Assembly: GCF_000337795.1 (NCBI RefSeq)
Contig: NZ_AOLP01000001.1
Location: 372,001 to 436,000 of the forward strand
DNA: 64,000 nucleotides
DNA from: Haloferax denitrificans ATCC 35960
GTDB lineage: Archaea > Halobacteriota > Halobacteria > Halobacteriales > Haloferacaceae
Direction of reading: 5' to 3'
Shown here: positions 44,505-54,384 of the stretch, one piece after another
Layout of the letters: each line of letters begins with the position of its first letter
How positions within the stretch are numbered: position 1 is the stretch's first letter
The notes under the pieces: model-generated
The model's database searches: none
Told to the model about the DNA's origin: nothing
What the model saw: the letters and a program-made list of their open reading frames with translations, nothing else
Made by a program: the position numbers and the translations under genes

Positions 44505-44577
44505 GGGCCCGTAGCTCAGTGGACAGAGTGCTTGGTTCCGGACCAAGATGTCGCGGGTTCAAATCCCGTCGGGTCCG
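44505..44577 (+). tRNA. tRNA-Arg, anticodon CCG
   Basis: GGGCCCG/CGGGTCC acceptor stem (one G-T pair), GTAGCTCAGTGGACAGAG D arm, CTTGG-TTCCGGA-CCAAG anticodon arm with CCG, GCGGG-TTCAAAT-CCCGT T arm, discriminator G. No CCA is encoded. GGTTTTACG about 30 nt upstream is the promoter. Its 3' end is one arm of the island's direct repeat, so the tRNA is the integration site and remains intact. Confidence 0.96.
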
Positions 44578-44580
44578 TCC
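44561..44580 (+). repeat. attL-like direct repeat in the tRNA-Arg 3' end
   Basis: AAATCCCGTCGGGTCCGTCC spans the T arm, acceptor stem and 3 nt beyond. It recurs with one mismatch at 54365-54384 (16 consecutive identical bases plus AAA before the mismatch). This is the pattern left by tRNA-targeting integration. Confidence 0.85.
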
Positions 44581-45681
44581 TGTTGCATTACGGTGTGGAA
44601 ACACAAGACAGCGACGCCTTCCTTTTAAACAAGGGTGCCGTTCCGTCCATCAAGTTCGTAATACCACATCACGGGGGTCGCCCCCGTCTGGCGATTCACA
44701 TAGAACCAAACGCCTGGACAGGTATTAGACATTGGGCGATTGCGGTCGCCGAGTAGAATTATAAAGAATAAACTCAGCGCCAGTAGCCCACACTAACTTC
44801 ACCAACAAAAGAATTATCACGTCATACGCTAACATGCACGGTGGGTCCAAGGTAGCGTTCCCGAGTAACACGTAATAAACAGGAGTCAAAACGGGACGCT
44901 CCGTGGACAGGGAGACAGCGACCCAGCAATAAGCCGATGGGGAAGGATTCCCGCTGGAGGCTTTAGCATCTCCGTGTTGGCACTCAGTCAATACGGTGTG
45001 TCCTTGTCCACGTTCACCGCGGGGATAACTCGTCGGTGAGCGGTTGAAGCAGAGAACACGACGTGCGAAATAGAACGTCGTCAAATCAATCCGCCATGCA
45101 GGCACCCGACTGTATGGCCAGAAACCAACCGCTTGCCCGGGACCGACAGCAATGCGTCGGTCCTACTAACCCGTGGCCAGTCGAGAGCATAGGACCCAAC
45201 GGTCGGACGACGAGCCTACATCCGACCAGACAAATCTCCAGCGATTCATAGACGGTGATGGTCAAGATCCCCGACCGGATCAACTTGGACAGTCCCCTGC
45301 GCCGTCACAGCTATCCATCAGGATAAGGCTATACTACTTACAACTCCTTATCGCGTACTTGCTCAATATTGCTCTAAAGGCAGTTTCTCAGAACCCAATA
45401 ATCCAAGTATTACAGCAACATCGACGTCTCCTATTATTGCTAGTTGGACTTGGTACATTGCTGAATTTAATCGTGAATGCCCTGATGGACTTCCATATTC
45501 TTTGATAAAGAATTTATTTGTGCGAGAAGGGCACCCCCCAGCGTTAAAAACTAGGTCAGCGTGACTGACATACTTGGTAACACAATGCTTTCTCTCCCTC
45601 CACCTGACCATTGCCTCGACCAGATATCAACGCCGAACTCTCCGCACCACTTATGAATCCCAGTTACAACATTTCTCGTAG
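44581..45681. other. Island left end, no convincing gene (about 1.1 kb)
   Basis: All frames were read. A 126-codon minus frame (44725-45105) and a 110-codon plus frame (45173-45505, with a hydrophobic second half LYYLQLLIAYLLNIALKAVS) are open, but neither has a promoter or a recognisable family. Another plus frame around 45290-45565 ends in IAEFNRECPDGLPYSLIKNL and competes with them. The stretch probably contains decayed genes, possibly the lost integrase. CTTATGAA near 45652 is the promoter of the next gene. Confidence 0.6.
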
Positions 45682-48378
45682 ATGGTCGAGAACTTTAGCG
45701 AGAAGGCTGATTTCATTTGGTCTATTGCGGATCTTCTCCGAGGAGACTACAAGCAGTCCGAGTACCAGAAAGTAATCCTGCCGCTGACTGTACTCAGGCG
45801 GCTTGATTGCGTGACTCAGCGGAACAAGGAAGATGTCCTTGAACGGTACGAACAACTTCAGAAACAGGGGATTAAGAACGTAGCACCAGCACTGAAGAAG
45901 GCAGCTGGCGAAAAGGTGTACAACACAAGCGAGTATACTTTCAAGTCGCTGTGCAGCGACCCTGACCAGATTGCGAGCAATCTTCAGTACTATATCAACT
46001 CGTACGATGAAGAAACAAAGGAGATTTTCGAGAAGTTCGACTTCGGGCACCAGATTCAACGACTCGAAGATGCGGACCTCCTATATAAGATCATTCGACA
46101 GTTCGCTGAGCTCGACCTTCATCCAGAGGATGTGCCGAATGAGGAGATGGGATACATCTACGAGGAACTCGTTCGGAAATTCAACGAACTGAGCAACGAG
46201 ACTGCCGGGGAACACTTCACACCCCGAGAGGTCATCGAGCTGATGGTGAACCTTCTATTCGACGAGGACGACAAAGTGCTGACTGAAGAAGGGGTTGTCC
46301 GTACGGTGTACGACCCCGCGTGTGGTACTGGGGGGATGCTGAGCGTTGCGGAGGATCACGTACGTGAACTCAACGGGGGTGCGAAACTCCACGCCTTCGG
46401 GCAAGAACTTAACCCTGAGACCTACGCGGTCTGTAACTCTGATATGCTGATCAAGGGGCAGAACCCAGACAACATTGCGTACGGGAACTCGTTTACTAAC
46501 GACGGGTTTGCTGACCGGAGCTTCGACTATATGCTCTCGAATCCACCGTTCGGAGTCTCGTGGAAGAAGGTGCGGGAGTATATTGAGCAAGAACACGAAG
46601 AGAAAGGTAAGGACGGGCGGTTTGACGCTGGCACCCCCCGTGTGAGTGACGGCTCTCTACTCTTCCTCCAACATATGGCCAGTAAAATGAAACCACCAGA
46701 GGAGGGGGGATCACGTATTGCAATCGTATTTAATGGGTCTCCGCTATTCAATGGAGGCCCAAATAGTGGTGAATCAGCCATTCGTCGCTGGATAATTGAG
46801 AATGATTGGTTGGAGGCGGTTATTGGGTTACCAAACCGATTGTTCTACAACACAGAGATATACACGTACGTTTGGATCCTCTCGAATGCTAAATCTGAGC
46901 GTAGACAGGGCAGAGTCCAACTAATAGATGCCCGAGAGATGTACGTTGAGTTGGAAGAGGGACTCGGAGATAAAAAATACAAGATTTCTAAGAATCATAT
47001 CAGCGAAATTTCCAAGATATTCGGAGAGATGGAAGAATCAAATCGGTCAAAGTTCTATGATAATGATGACTTCGGCTACCGCCGGATAGTCGTTGACCGG
47101 CCCCTCCGGATGAGTTTCCAAGTTACAGATGAGCGAATTCAGAAGCTCAAAAAAGAGAAGGCATTCTCCAACCGTGATGAGGAAACTCAGCAACATGTCA
47201 TTGACGCGTTGAGTTCTCTCGATTCAGATAAGCAGTGGATGAATAAGGACGAATTCCTGAATCAGGTAGAACTCACATTCAATATGCGTAATGTTGACGT
47301 CCGAAAGAGTGTATATAACGCAATTGTAAGGGCATTAGGCGAGCGCAACTCTGACGCGGATATTGTAACGGATAGCAACGGCGACGCAGAATATGATATC
47401 GACCGCCGAGAAAGAGAAAAGATTCCACTCGGGTCTGACCCCTACGAGTACTTCGAACGGAACATCGAACCCTATGCTCCGAATGCGTGGATCAATGATG
47501 ATTCTAAGTATTATGATGAAGATGGTGACTTGGGAATCGTTGGTTATGAAATAAATTTCCTTGAAAAGTTTCTATCATCTGACCCATCAAGCTCTGTCGA
47601 GGAGATAAATGAAGAAATAAGCATAATCAAGTCAGAAATTTCCTCAAAGACTCAAGAGTTACTGAACAAAAAGCATGAGATAATCACGCGTTCGTTAGAG
47701 GATTCGGATGGGCTTAAATCAGGGCCGAGCTGGTTAGTTGGTATTCCAGAGAACTGGGACTCTTCTCCTCTGAAATATAACGTTTCAATTGAAACCGGAT
47801 CTACTCCAAAAACGACCGTAGACCGTTACTGGGATGGTGAAATTCCTTGGTTCAGTCCGAAGGACATGAAATCCGACCTTCTCGAAGACTCACAAGATCA
47901 TATTACAAAAGAGGCACTTGAAGAAACCAGCATCTCTATCCTTCCTCCTAAGACGGTGTTTGTGGTGGTCCGTGGCATGATATTAGATAGAACTCTTCCT
48001 GTGGGCCTCTCGGAAGTTCCTGCTACAATTAATCAAGATATGAAAGCACTGAGGCCCGACGACCATCTCCTCCCAGAGTATCTCGCTCTACTTTTACGGG
48101 CCATCTCACCACTCCTTCTGGAGGTTGTAAAAGAGTCGTCACACGGGACTAAGAGACTCGACACGGAGGACTTGGAAAATATCGAGATCCCAATACCCCC
48201 AGTAGACGAACAAAGGCAGATACTAGAAGATGTTGAGAGACGCACGAACAAAATCGACTCAAAAATTGACGAGATATATAGATTACGGGATGATGTCGAA
48301 GCTTTAGAAGCGGCGGTCGGCAATCAGCGCCAAGCGTTATTAATGTCCGCAGTGACAGGACAGTTAAGCGACAAGTAG
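45682..48378 (+). CDS. hsdM: Type I restriction methylase fused to a half-size specificity subunit (HsdM-HsdS)
   Basis: An 898-residue fusion. HsdM part, about 1-640: N-terminal HsdM helices (FSEKADFIWSIADLLRGDYK), AdoMet motif I D211-P-A-C-G-T-G-G (YDPACGTGGM), catalytic N287-P-P-F (LSNPPFGVSW). Linker helix 640-675. HsdS part, about 680-898: one target-recognition domain opening GIPENWDSSPLKYNVSIETG, IPWFSPKDM, IPIPPVDEQRQILEDVERRT and a final coiled-coil helix. A normal HsdS has two such domains; only one is present. It should methylate adenine in its target and guide HsdR. Leaderless from ATG 45682. Confidence 0.9.
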   Translation: MVENFSEKADFIWSIADLLRGDYKQSEYQKVILPLTVLRRLDCVTQRNKEDVLERYEQLQKQGIKNVAPALKKAAGEKVYNTSEYTFKSLCSDPDQIASNLQYYINSYDEETKEIFEKFDFGHQIQRLEDADLLYKIIRQFAELDLHPEDVPNEEMGYIYEELVRKFNELSNETAGEHFTPREVIELMVNLLFDEDDKVLTEEGVVRTVYDPACGTGGMLSVAEDHVRELNGGAKLHAFGQELNPETYAVCNSDMLIKGQNPDNIAYGNSFTNDGFADRSFDYMLSNPPFGVSWKKVREYIEQEHEEKGKDGRFDAGTPRVSDGSLLFLQHMASKMKPPEEGGSRIAIVFNGSPLFNGGPNSGESAIRRWIIENDWLEAVIGLPNRLFYNTEIYTYVWILSNAKSERRQGRVQLIDAREMYVELEEGLGDKKYKISKNHISEISKIFGEMEESNRSKFYDNDDFGYRRIVVDRPLRMSFQVTDERIQKLKKEKAFSNRDEETQQHVIDALSSLDSDKQWMNKDEFLNQVELTFNMRNVDVRKSVYNAIVRALGERNSDADIVTDSNGDAEYDIDRREREKIPLGSDPYEYFERNIEPYAPNAWINDDSKYYDEDGDLGIVGYEINFLEKFLSSDPSSSVEEINEEISIIKSEISSKTQELLNKKHEIITRSLEDSDGLKSGPSWLVGIPENWDSSPLKYNVSIETGSTPKTTVDRYWDGEIPWFSPKDMKSDLLEDSQDHITKEALEETSISILPPKTVFVVVRGMILDRTLPVGLSEVPATINQDMKALRPDDHLLPEYLALLLRAISPLLLEVVKESSHGTKRLDTEDLENIEIPIPPVDEQRQILEDVERRTNKIDSKIDEIYRLRDDVEALEAAVGNQRQALLMSAVTGQLSDK

Positions 48379-48409
48379 GCGTCACTCCACGTACACCACC
48401 AACCCCCAC

Positions 48410-51376
48410 ATGACTGGAAAATCACACGATGAAGAGGCGTTCGAGGCCTATATTGAACAGGGTCTGCTCGACGGCGAATACGAGCAAGTTGACTCTGACG
48501 AGTTCGACGCCGGACGCGGACTGTTCCCCGATGTTCTCGTCTCGTTCGTCAAGGAGACCCAACCTGAGCGCTGGCAACAACTGGAGACCGCCTACAAGGG
48601 AAACGCCCGTCAGCGGTTTCTGCAAGAACTCACCAGCGCCCTCGAAACACGAGGAACACTTGAACTTCTGCGGCACGGCCTCCGCACCACCGGAACCACA
48701 ATCAAGCTTGCATTCTTCCAACCGAACACCAGAAAAAATCCAGAAGTCCAGAAGCAGTACGAGGCGAATCGTCTTGGGGTCACTAGGCAACTCCACTACT
48801 CTCCGACAGATCCTACGCTTAGTATCGATCTCGTGCTGAGCGTCAATGGCATTCCTGTGGCGACCGCCGAATTGAAAAACCCTGCAACTGGACAGACGGT
48901 TGTAGACGCGAAACAGCAGTATATGCAGGACCGCGATCCCGGCGACCCGGTTCTCAAATTCAAGCGAGGAGCCTTAGTCCACTTCGCAGTCGATACAAAC
49001 GAGGTAGAGTACACCACCGAACTGAACAGGGATGACACATACTTCCTCCCATTCAACAAGGGATACAATGGCGGGGCAGGGAATCCGCCGAACGAGGACG
49101 GCCACCGTACTGCATATCTTTGGGAAGAAGTCTGGGCGAAGGATTCTTGGATGGAGATCCTCCAGCGGTTCATCCATATAGACGAAGAAGAGATTCGAAA
49201 GAACGGCATCAAAGTGGATGAAGAGGAGACGATGATTTTCCCGCGGTACCACCAGCTAGAGTGCGTCCGCCAACTCGTGACTGCGTCAAAAGAGAACGGC
49301 GGTGGCGAAGATTATCTGATTCAGCACTCAACCGGTAGCGGGAAGAGCAAGTCTATTGCGTGGCTCGTCCACCGACTCGTCTCACTCCACAATGACGCCG
49401 ATGAAGCAGTCTACGACGGCGTCGTCGTAGTCACGGACCGCACTATCCTCGACGAGCAGCTTCGGAACACAATCTACGAATTGGACCACAAGACCGGCGT
49501 TGTCCACGCTATCAAGGGTGAGCAAGGTTCGAAGTCCCAAGAACTGGCGGAAGCTATCGAAGCGGGCAAGCCAGTCATCATCACCACGCTTCAGACGTTC
49601 CCCCACGTTATCGAACACGCGAAACGGCTCCCTGAACGGGATTACGCTGTGGTCGTGGACGAGGCTCACAGTAGCCAGTCTGGCGAGATGGCCCATGAGA
49701 TGAAGCAAATCCTCTCCGGTATCGACATCGACGAAGACGACGATACTGAGGACCTCATCTTGAAGAGTGCAGAAACGCGAGGGAATCAGGAGAACCTCAG
49801 CTTCTTCGCGTTCACGGCGACTCCGAAAGGCAAGACGCTGGAAGCGTTCGGAACAATACCCGAGGGCAGCGACAAGCCCGAGCCGTTCCACCTTTACTCG
49901 ATGCGCCAAGCCATCGAGGAAGGGTTCATTCTAGACGTCCTGCAGAATTACACGACCTACGAGACGTTCTATAACATTGCGAAGGTCATCGAGGAAGATC
50001 CACAGGTCCCGCAGAAGAAGGCAGTCAAGGCAGTGTCCAAGTTCCTGAAGCTGCACCCGCACAACATCGCTCAGAAGGTCGAGATCGTCGTCGAGCACTT
50101 CCGCGAACACACACAGAACAAGATCGGCGGGAAGGCGAAGGCGATGATCGTGACGTCCTCACGCGTACACGCAGTTCGTTACAAGAAGGCGATTGACAAG
50201 TACATCGAAAAGAACGGGTACAATCTGAGTGCACTCGTTGCGTTCAGCGGAACCGTCGAGGACGATGGGTTCGAGTACACCGAACCGGGCATGAACGACG
50301 GGATCAAGGAATCTGAACTTCCCAGCAAGTTCGACACCACGGAGTATCAGGTTCTCGTCGTCGCCGACAAGTATCAGACTGGGTTTGACCAGCCGCTTCT
50401 GCACACGATGTACGTGGATAAGAAGCTCTCTGGAATTCAGGCTGTTCAGACCCTGTCAAGACTGAACCGTACCCACCCTGGGAAGGAGGACACGTTCGTA
50501 CTCGACTTCGAGAACGACCGTGAGGATATCTTCGACGCGTTCCAGCCCTACTACGAGAAGACGACCATCGACGAGACGACCGACCCACAGCACATCTACC
50601 AACTGGAGTCCGAGCTGAATGCGTTCCAGATCTACACCAAGCACGAAGTAGATCAGTTTGCAGAGGCGTTCTTCAGCCCCAAGAACAAGGGAACTGAACA
50701 GGCGCACGCGAAGCTGAGCAGCCACATTCAGCCAGCGCGGGATCGATATATGGTCGCCGATGAGGAAACGCAAGACGAGTTCCGCTCGAAGCTTCGTTCG
50801 TTCCTCCGGTTGTACAAGTTCCAGTCGCAGGTCGTCAGCTACGCAGACACCACGTTAGAGAAGCTCTACACCTTTGGCCGCTTCCTCTACAAGGAACTTC
50901 CACGAGACTCTCGGGAATCGCGGGTGGAATTCAACGACGAACTCGCGCTGCAGTACTACCGTCTAGAAAAATCGGATGAGGGTGGTATCGAAATTGGCTC
51001 CGGCGGGGGGAGCGTGTCAGTACCGAATGAAACTGGCACAGGGAGTCAGGAAGATGACGAGGTCGAACTATCCACTATTGTTGAGAAGGTCAATGAGGAG
51101 CTTGGAACAGACTTCACGCAGGCAGACCAACTCTTCCTCGACCAACTGAAAGAGGACGCTCTGGATGACGACCATCTTCGTCGGTCGGCACAAGTCAACA
51201 GTAGAGAAAACTTCGCGTTAGAGTTCGACGACGCCCTGACCGAGATGTTCATTGATCGGATGGACCAGAATCAAGAACTGTTTGCCAAGTTTATGGACAA
51301 CGAGGAAGTCCAAAAAGTGATAACCAACCACTTGCGACAACGGGTATACGAGGAAAGTCAGGCAGCCAACAGCTGA
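48410..51376 (+). CDS. hsdR: Type I restriction endonuclease subunit R
   Basis: A 988-residue protein 31 bp after hsdM. Nuclease domain with D140...E154-x-K156 (IDLVLSVNG, ATAELKNP); helicase with Walker A K312 (HSTGSGKSKS), DEAH box D417-E-A-H420 (VVVDEAHSS), motif III FFAFTATPKG and motif VI region LSRLNRTHPG. ATP-driven translocation followed by cleavage of unmodified DNA. All key residues are present, so the enzyme looks intact. The GC is nearer to the chromosome's than the hsdM 3' half, so the M-S fusion may have been assembled from different sources. Confidence 0.93.
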   Translation: MTGKSHDEEAFEAYIEQGLLDGEYEQVDSDEFDAGRGLFPDVLVSFVKETQPERWQQLETAYKGNARQRFLQELTSALETRGTLELLRHGLRTTGTTIKLAFFQPNTRKNPEVQKQYEANRLGVTRQLHYSPTDPTLSIDLVLSVNGIPVATAELKNPATGQTVVDAKQQYMQDRDPGDPVLKFKRGALVHFAVDTNEVEYTTELNRDDTYFLPFNKGYNGGAGNPPNEDGHRTAYLWEEVWAKDSWMEILQRFIHIDEEEIRKNGIKVDEEETMIFPRYHQLECVRQLVTASKENGGGEDYLIQHSTGSGKSKSIAWLVHRLVSLHNDADEAVYDGVVVVTDRTILDEQLRNTIYELDHKTGVVHAIKGEQGSKSQELAEAIEAGKPVIITTLQTFPHVIEHAKRLPERDYAVVVDEAHSSQSGEMAHEMKQILSGIDIDEDDDTEDLILKSAETRGNQENLSFFAFTATPKGKTLEAFGTIPEGSDKPEPFHLYSMRQAIEEGFILDVLQNYTTYETFYNIAKVIEEDPQVPQKKAVKAVSKFLKLHPHNIAQKVEIVVEHFREHTQNKIGGKAKAMIVTSSRVHAVRYKKAIDKYIEKNGYNLSALVAFSGTVEDDGFEYTEPGMNDGIKESELPSKFDTTEYQVLVVADKYQTGFDQPLLHTMYVDKKLSGIQAVQTLSRLNRTHPGKEDTFVLDFENDREDIFDAFQPYYEKTTIDETTDPQHIYQLESELNAFQIYTKHEVDQFAEAFFSPKNKGTEQAHAKLSSHIQPARDRYMVADEETQDEFRSKLRSFLRLYKFQSQVVSYADTTLEKLYTFGRFLYKELPRDSRESRVEFNDELALQYYRLEKSDEGGIEIGSGGGSVSVPNETGTGSQEDDEVELSTIVEKVNEELGTDFTQADQLFLDQLKEDALDDDHLRRSAQVNSRENFALEFDDALTEMFIDRMDQNQELFAKFMDNEEVQKVITNHLRQRVYEESQAANS

Positions 51377-51433
51377 TTTGATAAACCCGGAGACACTCGC
51401 CCGTGTTCCCGTAGATTCCGATCGTCACCATAT

Positions 51434-51796
51434 CTATCTATTCATTGTTAGTTCCGGAAGGCGTTCCTGAAACAACTTGTCCAGAACTGCCCACAGAATC
51501 TCCGTCGGAATCTGCTTCTCAAACTCAGCCGCGTCGTGATTGGTCTCATCCAATTCTGGGTGGTAATACTGGAAGTGAACATCCCCAAGTTCGGGATGGT
51601 CGTCGTCACGATGCCAGCCACAGTTGAACCCCGTATTTGGGTCGGCGTAGTGGATCCGAAACTGTGACTCGTCCCCGGCGAACCGCCACTCAACGTCGAG
51701 CGTCGGCGACTGGGCCAGAGTCGTCGGCACGACGCGATTGGGGTCAATCTCTGCTTGGATGAACTTCTTGACGATACTGTCCGGTTCGTAAGACAC
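51434..51796 (-). CDS. TumE-like (DUF6516-like) putative toxin
   Basis: A 120-residue protein starting with GTG 51796 (upstream in-frame TGA rules out a longer form). The core DVEWRFAGDESQFRIHYADP, FNCGWHRDDDHPELGDVHFQ and a C-terminal helix match haloarchaeal proteins I associate with TumE/DUF6516 toxins, which often adjoin a DUF7342-type HTH protein. Here that partner is about 1.9 kb away. Conserved His/Asp-rich HRDDDHP could be a catalytic or metal site. Identification is by motif reading only. It converges with hsdR, 57 bp apart. Confidence 0.55.
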   Translation of the reverse strand: MSYEPDSIVKKFIQAEIDPNRVVPTTLAQSPTLDVEWRFAGDESQFRIHYADPNTGFNCGWHRDDDHPELGDVHFQYYHPELDETNHDAAEFEKQIPTEILWAVLDKLFQERLPELTMNR

Positions 51797-51893
51797 CGAC
51801 GTGACCGCAGGGTGTCACTGAACAGTGGAACACGACCTCAAAAAGACTGTAACACCTATACAGGAAAGGTAGTGGAGTATATCAATTCAATAT

Positions 51894-52364
51894 TTACTCG
51901 ACAGACCAACTGTCGAATTCGATTACTTCTCCGATCTTTGCTTGTCGATAAATCTGTATGCTCTTCAATTCACTTAGAATCTCACTGGGAGGCAACTCAC
52001 CAAATTCTTTTGAGGTTTCGCGTACCAACTCATCAATTTCACCTGACAAATTGCACTGCGGCTGTGATTGGACCTTTAGAGTTTTAATTCGGTCTCTACC
52101 GATCTTAACCTCGCCATGTTCAACCCCATCTATTTCGGCAAGTGCCTCTTCAATACTACTGGAAAAGACGCCACTAAGATAAGGTTCATACTCAACTTCC
52201 GTTATCCGGTTCTCATGGCTTTTGAAGTATTCTACTTCGATCAAGAAAATAAGACTATGGATACGCTCAACTGAGACATGGTTAAAATGACGCAGAACAC
52301 ACTTGACCAGGGGAACCACCCCCTTAACTTCCTCCGTTGCCGGGCTCCCGTGTTCAACTGCCAT
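51894..52364 (-). CDS. Panacea/SocA-like (DUF4065-like) protein
   Basis: A 156-residue soluble protein: LVKCVLRHFNHVSVERIHSL, IFLIEVEYFKSHENRITEVE, YEPYLSGVFSSSIEEALAEI, then ETSKEFGELPPSEILSELKS. The order (helix, LIYL-type helix, Tyr-x-Pro-Tyr-x-x-x-hydrophobic-Ser, final helix bundle) is that of Panacea antitoxin domains. Known members neutralise unrelated toxins, including membrane-active ones. It is encoded just downstream of a membrane protein. CTTTATTGTC lies 27 nt before the ATG, so it can be made on its own. The family call is inferred. Confidence 0.5.
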   Translation of the reverse strand: MAVEHGSPATEEVKGVVPLVKCVLRHFNHVSVERIHSLIFLIEVEYFKSHENRITEVEYEPYLSGVFSSSIEEALAEIDGVEHGEVKIGRDRIKTLKVQSQPQCNLSGEIDELVRETSKEFGELPPSEILSELKSIQIYRQAKIGEVIEFDSWSVE

Positions 52365-52476
52365 ACCATGTGAATGGGGATGGAGACAATAAAGTTACCC
52401 TCAGACAAATCACACCCCGATATAAATAACCACTCTGATTAATTCTGTCCACCTGCCAGATCTATTTCCTTCCAAG

Positions 52477-53427
52477 TTATCCAAAATGAACAGAGACGTA
52501 GAACTCTGAGATTAGGTACTCGATATAATTTCGTTTATATTTCCCAGCAGCCCATGCAAAAGTCATTGCGAGTCCAATAAGAAGGAAAGAGACCATCACT
52601 ATTTGTCCATTAGGTATACTTGCTGTAAGATAAGATTCGTATTTAAGAGGTTCGGGAGTTAAATTCGGGGGGTACGCCAATCTAAGAAAATAGAAAAGCG
52701 ATATAAATGAGAGGACAGTCCACATACCTCTACAAAATGCGTACCGCGCTTGAAGCCGAAAAGCACGGCTGGAGTTGTTTTTTGACAAGAAACTAGTAAT
52801 GGCTGGATAGACACTAGACAAGTCTGATGAACTGTCTACTTCGAAATCGTAGATTGCAGTTCTAACCATGAACTCGTGGGTGAACGACAACTCATTTAAT
52901 GACTCGTCAACAGATCGGGGAGAGTTAATTGGTTCTGATAAGAGTTTTTCAAATAAATGTCGATGGCTTAGAAATATGTGTGACAGCTCTTCTTTTCTTT
53001 TTTCGGACCAGTAGTAGCCATTCCGATACCAGCCTGTAGTTATTCGGTCCAAGTAGTTCTCTTCTTCTTTCTGTTCATCTTCAGCACCATCACGTAATTC
53101 CGAGGGGGAGTCTAATTCAGGAGGAGTAAGCGAAACCCAAGACGAAAGGTCGAATAATTCAACCGTATTCCGCACTCTTCTTGCAAACCAATAGAACATA
53201 TGTTCAAAAAACAACGAGATAGTATGGACCGCTTCGCCTAATAGCAATCCAAAAATAACTATGGAGATGAGAGTGATGATGAACACGAAAATATTTTCGA
53301 ATAGCGGTGGGACAGGAATAGAGTGATCAGGTAATAACGGTACAATCCCAATAGCTAATGCAACTCCTGGGAGAGATTTCCCAAAGAAATCATATGAACC
53401 AAACACGGAAATTAATCTAGTCGGCAT
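52477..53427 (-). CDS. Four-helix membrane protein of unknown function
   Basis: A 316-residue protein. Helices at about 15-33 and 42-68 (ENIFVFIITLISIVIFGLLL), a 150-residue charged cytoplasmic domain (contains RITTGWYRNGYYWSEKRKEE), then helices at about 230-252 (WTVLSFISLFYFLRL) and 270-292 (IVMVSFLLIGLAMTFAW), ending RNYIEYLISEFYVSVHFG. I recognise no family. AAATATATTA before the ATG is a strong TATA element. Its place in a defence island beside a Panacea-like gene suggests an effector or toxin of the membrane, but there is no direct evidence. Confidence 0.75.
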   Translation of the reverse strand: MPTRLISVFGSYDFFGKSLPGVALAIGIVPLLPDHSIPVPPLFENIFVFIITLISIVIFGLLLGEAVHTISLFFEHMFYWFARRVRNTVELFDLSSWVSLTPPELDSPSELRDGAEDEQKEEENYLDRITTGWYRNGYYWSEKRKEELSHIFLSHRHLFEKLLSEPINSPRSVDESLNELSFTHEFMVRTAIYDFEVDSSSDLSSVYPAITSFLSKNNSSRAFRLQARYAFCRGMWTVLSFISLFYFLRLAYPPNLTPEPLKYESYLTASIPNGQIVMVSFLLIGLAMTFAWAAGKYKRNYIEYLISEFYVSVHFG

Positions 53428-53668
53428 CGCGAGTATTGATAATATATTTCCATGAATTATTTTAAATTCATCGCTAATGTCTCTTTGTTAGATTTTCCTG
53501 GGATACTTTGCTTTACATCCCCATTATCGCATTTATATTAAACATCTACGAGAAAAGCCAGCTAGAATTTGTTGAATCGGCACCAAGGCAACCACAGGAT
53601 ATCGCTGCAGGCACATCTTTCAGCCCCACGTAGACCGACTGTCGATAGTTCCTGATAACCTCATTTGG

Positions 53669-54184
53669 TCACGCGGAGATGGAGTCACGTTTGGTCGCCC
53701 AGTCGTACTCGTTGAGCGCCGCTCGAACGACTGGGACACGGTCAGCGAGGTGCTCCCATTCGCTGGCAACCTCTCGGCGCGTCTCGACTTCGTCGGTGTC
53801 GTCGAGGTCGGCGATACTCGCTCGGAGCTCACCAGGCGTCTCGAGGTCGTACGACTGCTTCCAGTCTGTAATCTTGCTCCGCATCGAGTCGAGGGCACTC
53901 GTCAACTCCTCGCGGCTGTGTTCTCGCTGGAGTGCCGCGACCTCCCGGTAGGTCGCCATGAGCTGGTCGACACAGTAGAGTATCTGGTCACCCTGTTCGA
54001 CCTTCCGGAGGACGTTGTCCTCGACGAGTTGGTCGAGGTACTTCTGGGCCGTCTTGACGGAGACTTCTGTCTCGTTTGCGACCCACGACGCGGTGCGAGG
54101 CGTCCGAAGCGTCCGGGCGGCGGCACGGACGCGCTCACCTCGGGTCATGGAAACGCGGGAGTCGTTCCGGGTTTCGTCGGGCAT
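53669..54184 (-). CDS. HTH protein, DUF7342-like (possible antitoxin)
   Basis: A 171-residue protein with a winged helix (MTRGERVRAAARTLRTPRTA, SVKTAQKYLDQLVEDNVLRK) and a long helical C-terminus (YREVAALQREHSREELTSAL). It matches the haloarchaeal DUF7342 type, often found beside TumE-like toxins. I chose ATG 54184 because TGGATATATG stands about 28 nt upstream. It is the first leftward gene in the island; 241 bp of AT-rich promoter sequence separates it from the membrane-protein gene. GC is higher than its neighbours', suggesting a separate origin. Confidence 0.75.
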   Translation of the reverse strand: MPDETRNDSRVSMTRGERVRAAARTLRTPRTASWVANETEVSVKTAQKYLDQLVEDNVLRKVEQGDQILYCVDQLMATYREVAALQREHSREELTSALDSMRSKITDWKQSYDLETPGELRASIADLDDTDEVETRREVASEWEHLADRVPVVRAALNEYDWATKRDSISA

Positions 54185-54364
54185 GTTTGTTTCTACGAGG
54201 TGGTGGAACATATATCCACTAGGTTGGAAATATGATAGAGTCGAAGGACAGCGTTCGTCTGGTGAACGAAATGAATCCAAAAATGCAGTCTACTGACCCC
54301 GCTGAAAATGTACCGTATTGACCCTCATCCCCCTGAAATCTAGACCCCGTTCGTCCCTCGCACG

Positions 54365-54384
54365 AAAGCCCGTCGGGTCCGTCC
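54365..54384 (+). repeat. attR-like direct repeat
   Basis: AAAGCCCGTCGGGTCCGTCC repeats the tRNA-Arg 3' end at 44561-44580 with a single mismatch (G for T at the fourth base). It marks the right boundary of the island and lacks the rest of the tRNA gene. Confidence 0.85.

Follow-up and report, generated by a model that had tools for sequence, protein, structure and literature searches.

A single reading frame in the window (the whole 64,000-nt stretch of Haloferax denitrificans ATCC 35960 DNA analyzed here) encodes the Type I methylase subunit HsdM joined to the C-terminal half of the specificity subunit HsdS, with only one target-recognition domain (TRD). We assign a probability of roughly 0.8 to the reading that this gene provides the combined M and S subunit of a complete Type I system, with two chains forming a head-to-tail homodimer that would recognize an interrupted palindrome and assemble with HsdR as R2(MS)2. 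The homodimer, the palindromic site, and the activity of the fusion itself are inferred by analogy with known enzymes.

The fusion gene occupies positions 45682–48378 on the plus strand, begins with ATG, and is open, encoding 898 amino acids. The original prediction of a complete adenine methylase in one frame with a specificity part was borne out by Pfam, which places HsdM_N at residues 10–141 (88.8 bits), the N6_Mtase catalytic domain at residues 155–454 (206 bits; together 45709–47043, plus strand), and a single Methylase_S at residues 689–858 (64 bits), with DPACGTGG at residue 211 preceding NPPF at residue 287. The top PADLOC match was the 661-residue MTase_I model, which covers residues 3–661 (887 bits), followed by Type I specificity models at residues ∼640–896. 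The nearest haloarchaeal separate HsdMs (mostly 662–664 aa) end at fusion residue ∼662, so the fusion holds the whole of HsdM, including its C-terminal helix. This native end (residues ∼636–662; 47587–47667) aligns with the C termini of separate HsdMs and is part of a predicted helix at residues 639–672. It is followed by a linker of ∼23 residues (∼663–685; 47668–47736) resembling the end of the HsdS central conserved region (the D1 tail, with its “(A)VTKGL..” motif), the single TRD (residues 686–840; 47737–48201), and a C-terminal dimerization helix, D2 (residues 841–891; 48202–48354), all on the plus strand.

An AlphaFold2 model of the S-half, with 21 alignment rows, had a mean pLDDT of 91 and contained the TRD at residues 686–840 and one 51-residue helix at 841–891. 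The specificity part foreseen from the DNA (∼220 residues, one TRD, and one helix) was thus essentially right, with the refinement that another helix (∼639–672) lies upstream of the TRD; it is largely HsdM's own C-terminal helix, which separate HsdMs of the family also have. In the full-length model the pLDDT of the S region was <50, and because few alignment rows cover the S part, that model is uninformative there; the AlphaFold2 models are monomers. The top Foldseek matches of the S-half model were HsdS structures, including 1YF2 and 7BST (EcoR124I), and the matches also included a short single-domain protein (8VSQ/8VSR) and the 185-residue protein Esub1. By AlphaFold2 and Foldseek, the fusion has the hallmark of a half-HsdS, one TRD and then one dimerization-type helix. 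A heptad pattern is detectable in that helix (shuffle p = 0.014; p = 0.003 for its first 40 residues).

The hsdR gene starts 31 bases after the fusion gene (48410–51376, plus strand) and is intact, encoding 988 amino acids with HSDR_N, SWI2_SNF2, and T1R_D3-like domains, the D..ELK motif in HSDR_N, Walker A GSGKS, and a DEAH motor. The locus encodes a Type I HsdR, with a PD-(D/E)XK domain and an SF2 motor, and a γ-class N6-adenine HsdM, identified by its domains, motif order, and PADLOC match. In place of the separate two-TRD HsdS of Type I systems there is one TRD, fused to HsdM, and it is the sole Methylase_S of the genome. Other classes are organized differently. In Type 1 1/2 methyltransferases (M.AhdI), which serve a Type II system, M and half-S are different chains, and here there is one chain with an adjoining Type I HsdR. 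Type IIG and IIB enzymes carry the nuclease on the methylase chain; the chain here begins with HsdM_N, and the nuclease is in HsdR. Type ISP enzymes are single chains that include nuclease, translocase, methylase, and TRD, and here two genes encode the M–half-S fusion and HsdR. The system descends from Type I and would be expected to work like it, departing in its fused, one-TRD S.

Exactly one Methylase_S match, one HSDR_N match, and one full HsdM-type N6_Mtase were found in the source genome (3.83 Mb, 99.91% complete, 21-contig assembly); two weaker N6_Mtase matches, in frames of 855 and 1306 aa, were both without Methylase_S. The earlier observation that the island has no separate hsdS consequently holds and widens to the whole genome, and supply of a second TRD by another gene was rejected for the same reason.

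The system sits in a 9.8-kb low-GC island (44578–54384) inserted at the 3′ end of a tRNA-Arg(CCG) gene (44505–44577, plus strand), and this end forms the left island boundary. An attL-like 20-bp repeat (44561–44580, plus strand) is matched at 19 of 20 positions by an attR-like repeat (54365–54384, plus strand). The island is strain-variable, and at the empty site in a conspecific genome (G152 C21), the flanks overlap by exactly the 20-bp repeat. The island ORFs scanned yielded no integrase-like domain. Beside the restriction–modification genes lie three minus-strand genes (51434–53427; 120, 156, and 316 aa) with no Pfam match; the two larger ones had no PADLOC match, and the 316-aa product looks membrane-spanning. 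These are possibly uncharacterized accessory or defense genes. A DUF7342 protein (Pfam, 191 bits) is encoded near the right end of the island (53669–54280).

Close relatives of the HsdM (66–75% identity in M) are distributed patchily across the haloarchaea. About 27 of them are separate M proteins, nearly always beside a two-TRD S of ∼424–466 aa, in loci organized as separate M, S, and R; the window HsdM is ∼72% identical to such relatives. The search for other archaeal M–S fusions that had been proposed yielded two M–half-S fusions with one TRD, each of 908 aa, from Halobellus inordinatus YC20 (L032) and Natrarchaeobius chitinivorans AArcht7 (L034), and one fusion with two TRDs. Across 391 halobacterial genomes, L032, L034, and the window fusion were the only Methylase_S frames of more than ∼550 aa among the matches listed, and across 393 genomes of the phylum, the matches listed held one further M–S fusion, the two-TRD example. 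The latter (L110:3976–6756, in the archaeal genome G554) is a 926-aa HsdM–HsdS and the natural equivalent of the EcoKI M–S fusion, which was engineered. A 667-aa frame in G468 was considered as an M fusion and rejected, as it proved to be a long two-TRD S. No Methylase_S besides the fusion was found in H. inordinatus (G095). No such fusion was found in the viral contigs searched; in a tblastn search of plasmids, no record covered 80% of the query, and the best-extended match, on a P. aeruginosa plasmid, was without an intact fusion. Separately, the two TRD halves of a full HsdS from Halorubrum salipaludis (L049:8988–10343; the same protein occurs in L013) are 45% identical, and this protein may recognize a nearly symmetric target with no half-S involved.

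In the proposed mechanism, two fusion chains would pair head-to-tail via the C-terminal helix and restore the M2S geometry. Each TRD of the dimer would then read the same half-site on opposite strands, so that the target would be an interrupted palindrome, with one m6A per half-site, and two HsdR subunits would bind the dimer to give R2(MS)2. A homodimer with a symmetric interrupted target, as originally proposed, is the best-supported reading, given the single genomic TRD, the retained helix, the ordinary two-TRD relatives, and an engineered analog described below. The companion proposal, that subunit ratios differ from R2M2S1, stands by chain count and fails by domain ratio: because (M–half-S)2 contains the same domains as M2S, R2(MS)2 has two R, two M, and two TRDs, as R2M2S1 does.

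A single TRD is by itself no proof of a palindrome, because Type ISP enzymes, with one TRD per methylase, read asymmetric sites (PMC3874165). The fusion might likewise act as a monomer at each site in the manner of Type ISP and MmeI enzymes, which share this one-TRD arrangement and asymmetric sites (PMC3874165); one strand of an asymmetric half-site would be methylated, and HsdR would cut when two converging complexes meet. This is unlikely, considering that HsdR is an ordinary Type I subunit on a chain of its own, that the HsdM is ∼72% identical to partners of two-TRD HsdS proteins, that the 51-residue heptad helix typical of dimerizing S subunits has been retained, and that the engineered equivalent dimerizes.

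Within the homodimer reading, the TRD offers a guess at the target. Aligned with the C-terminal TRD of EcoR124I/II, whose half-site is CGAY, it shows 38% identity across 153 residues and 44% across the first 101. In StySKI, a similar TRD occupies the other position and recognizes CGAT (PMC3874165). From these likenesses, we tentatively propose a CGAY half-site and CGAY-Nx-RTCG as the target of the window fusion, which is speculative at a TRD identity of only 38%. Between the PP motif and the “(A)VTG” motif, L032, L034, and the measured full S proteins have almost the same number of residues, about 43–46; the window fusion has exactly seven more than L032. Its helix is exactly one heptad longer than the equivalent helix of the fused relatives and is also longer than those of the measured full S proteins. 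In EcoR124I/II, the gap grows by 1 bp when one helix gains four residues (PMC3874165), and a longer spacer would be expected for the window fusion on this precedent. Speculatively, the extra heptad could produce an unusually long target spacer, by an amount that is a guess.

Both linkers and closest matches indicate which part of HsdS was retained. Full S proteins have, just ahead of their second TRD, the last part of the central helix, with a motif that recurs in the L032 linker; the window linker carries a more diverged version (HEIITRSLEDSDGLKSGPSWLVGIPENW). Seven full S proteins have C-terminal halves that match the L032 half-S at 75–81% identity, with 81% for that of Haloglomus halophilum (L043); the L032 and L034 halves alike match C-terminal halves of full S proteins at this level, and the three best matches of the window half-S (38–40%) are also C-terminal halves. 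Both fusions therefore keep the C-terminal HsdS half. Fusion of an N-terminal half was rejected on two grounds: the junction corresponds to the last part of the central region, and the L032 and L034 halves match C-terminal halves. As read from the junction, TRD1 and D1 appear to have been lost in a deletion that brought the end of hsdM up against the last part of the central region.

In a maximum-likelihood tree of M, the window sequence grouped with separate-M loci (L005, L006, L039, and L010; 99/98), and L032 and L034 were nested together in another group of separate-M loci. The fused or separate state required two changes on the tree. A single shared fusion event was rejected by the AU test of one fused clade (p = 0.0008 and 0.0004), whether distant rows were included or left out. 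Because the tree sets L032 and L034 apart from the window fusion, the M–half-S fusion probably arose twice, with the C-terminal S half kept each time; “twice” is well supported rather than certain, given the long window branch and the possibility of recombination.

L032 and L034, from different families, have in common a 6-kb block of 84% identical DNA containing the M–half-S fusion and R, with dissimilar flanks. By a simple counting method, ω (dN/dS) between them was 0.038 for M, about 0.025 for the S-half with its linker, and 0.009 in the TRD; dS was near saturation, at 1.1–1.8 overall and 1.4–1.8 for the S-half and TRD. The low ω of the S-half indicates that selection keeps the fused half-S. 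This constraint argues that the fused single-TRD architecture works in L032 and L034; for the window copy, which is without a close fused relative, the argument would apply by analogy.

These data also bear on whether the window fusion is a decaying or nonfunctional remnant, in which deletion of TRD1 and D1 abolished modification and restriction. The junction does resemble a deletion that starts at the end of hsdM and stops in the last part of the HsdS central region, and the island is strain-variable and has no recognizable integrase. Such decay is nevertheless very unlikely, with the M and R frames and motifs intact and the same architecture having arisen in a second lineage, in which strong purifying selection acts on it and two families share it as a 6-kb unit. 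That the fusion is active only in hybrid complexes, with a full HsdS or another M from elsewhere, has an almost negligible probability: the full EcoKI M–S fusion is active in vitro only with extra M subunits (PMC3510504), but the source genome has no other Methylase_S or HSDR_N, H. inordinatus has no other Methylase_S, and each fusion chain already supplies one M per TRD.

A published model derives Type IIG and other enzymes from Type I via M–half-S fusions, with engineered proteins as its support. We found no earlier report of a natural M–half-S fusion with its HsdR in the mainly open-access literature searched, and such a fusion was unmentioned in the searched passages of two surveys of archaeal and halobacterial restriction–modification systems. 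We consider it reasonably probable that the haloarchaeal proteins are functional natural Type I HsdM–half-HsdS fusions of at least two origins, which lost TRD1 and the central helix and represent an intermediate between Type I and Type IIG or homodimeric γ-methyltransferases that was previously available only as engineered proteins, the window member having a helix longer by one heptad that shifts the half-site spacing. The natural fusions and their unfused relatives, with the same M family and the same TRD type in a separate S, make both the fusion step and the way helix length affects target spacing directly testable via methylome sequencing in cultivable haloarchaea.

Among the closest known counterparts is an engineered HsdM–half-HsdS, CC398-1 M(1/2)Sfus (Bowen et al. 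2018), which is a dimer by gel filtration, methylates ACCN5GGT (PMC6158711), and together with HsdR restricts phage about as well as wild type (eop 0.10 vs. 0.15; PMC6158711). Like the window fusion, it combines HsdM and a one-TRD half-HsdS in one chain with a separate HsdR; its dimeric state, palindromic target, and activity in modification and restriction are what we predict for the window fusion. It is artificial, however, and uses the N-terminal HsdS half (TRD1 and the central region), whereas the natural fusions use the C-terminal half (the D1 end, TRD2, and D2). Half-HsdS proteins of EcoR124I and EcoDXXI also dimerize, and such proteins read GAAN7TTC, TCAN8TGA, and GAAYN5RTTC (PMC3874165). 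The natural and mutant half-HsdS systems NgoAV, EcoR124I-Δ50, and EcoDXXI-Δ and the Type 1 1/2 methyltransferase M.AhdI all have one TRD and one helix and dimerize on an interrupted palindrome, but their S is a separate polypeptide, and M.AhdI belongs to a Type II system. The homodimeric γ-methyltransferases M.DrdI, M.XmnI, and M.XcmI combine a methylase and one TRD per chain with C-terminal helices and interrupted palindromic targets; they partner Type II endonucleases, whereas the window fusion partners an ATP-driven HsdR. Type ISP enzymes (LlaGI and LlaBIII) resemble it in that the methylase of an ATP-dependent system carries one fused TRD, but their nuclease and translocase are on the same chain and their site is asymmetric. 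The EcoKI M–S fusion (PMC3510504) and the archaeal L110 protein unite HsdM and HsdS in one frame, but with two TRDs per chain. The parts and the working principle are therefore already known, and the design has been made in the laboratory; the natural M–half-S fusion with its HsdR is, as far as the literature searched shows, the new part.
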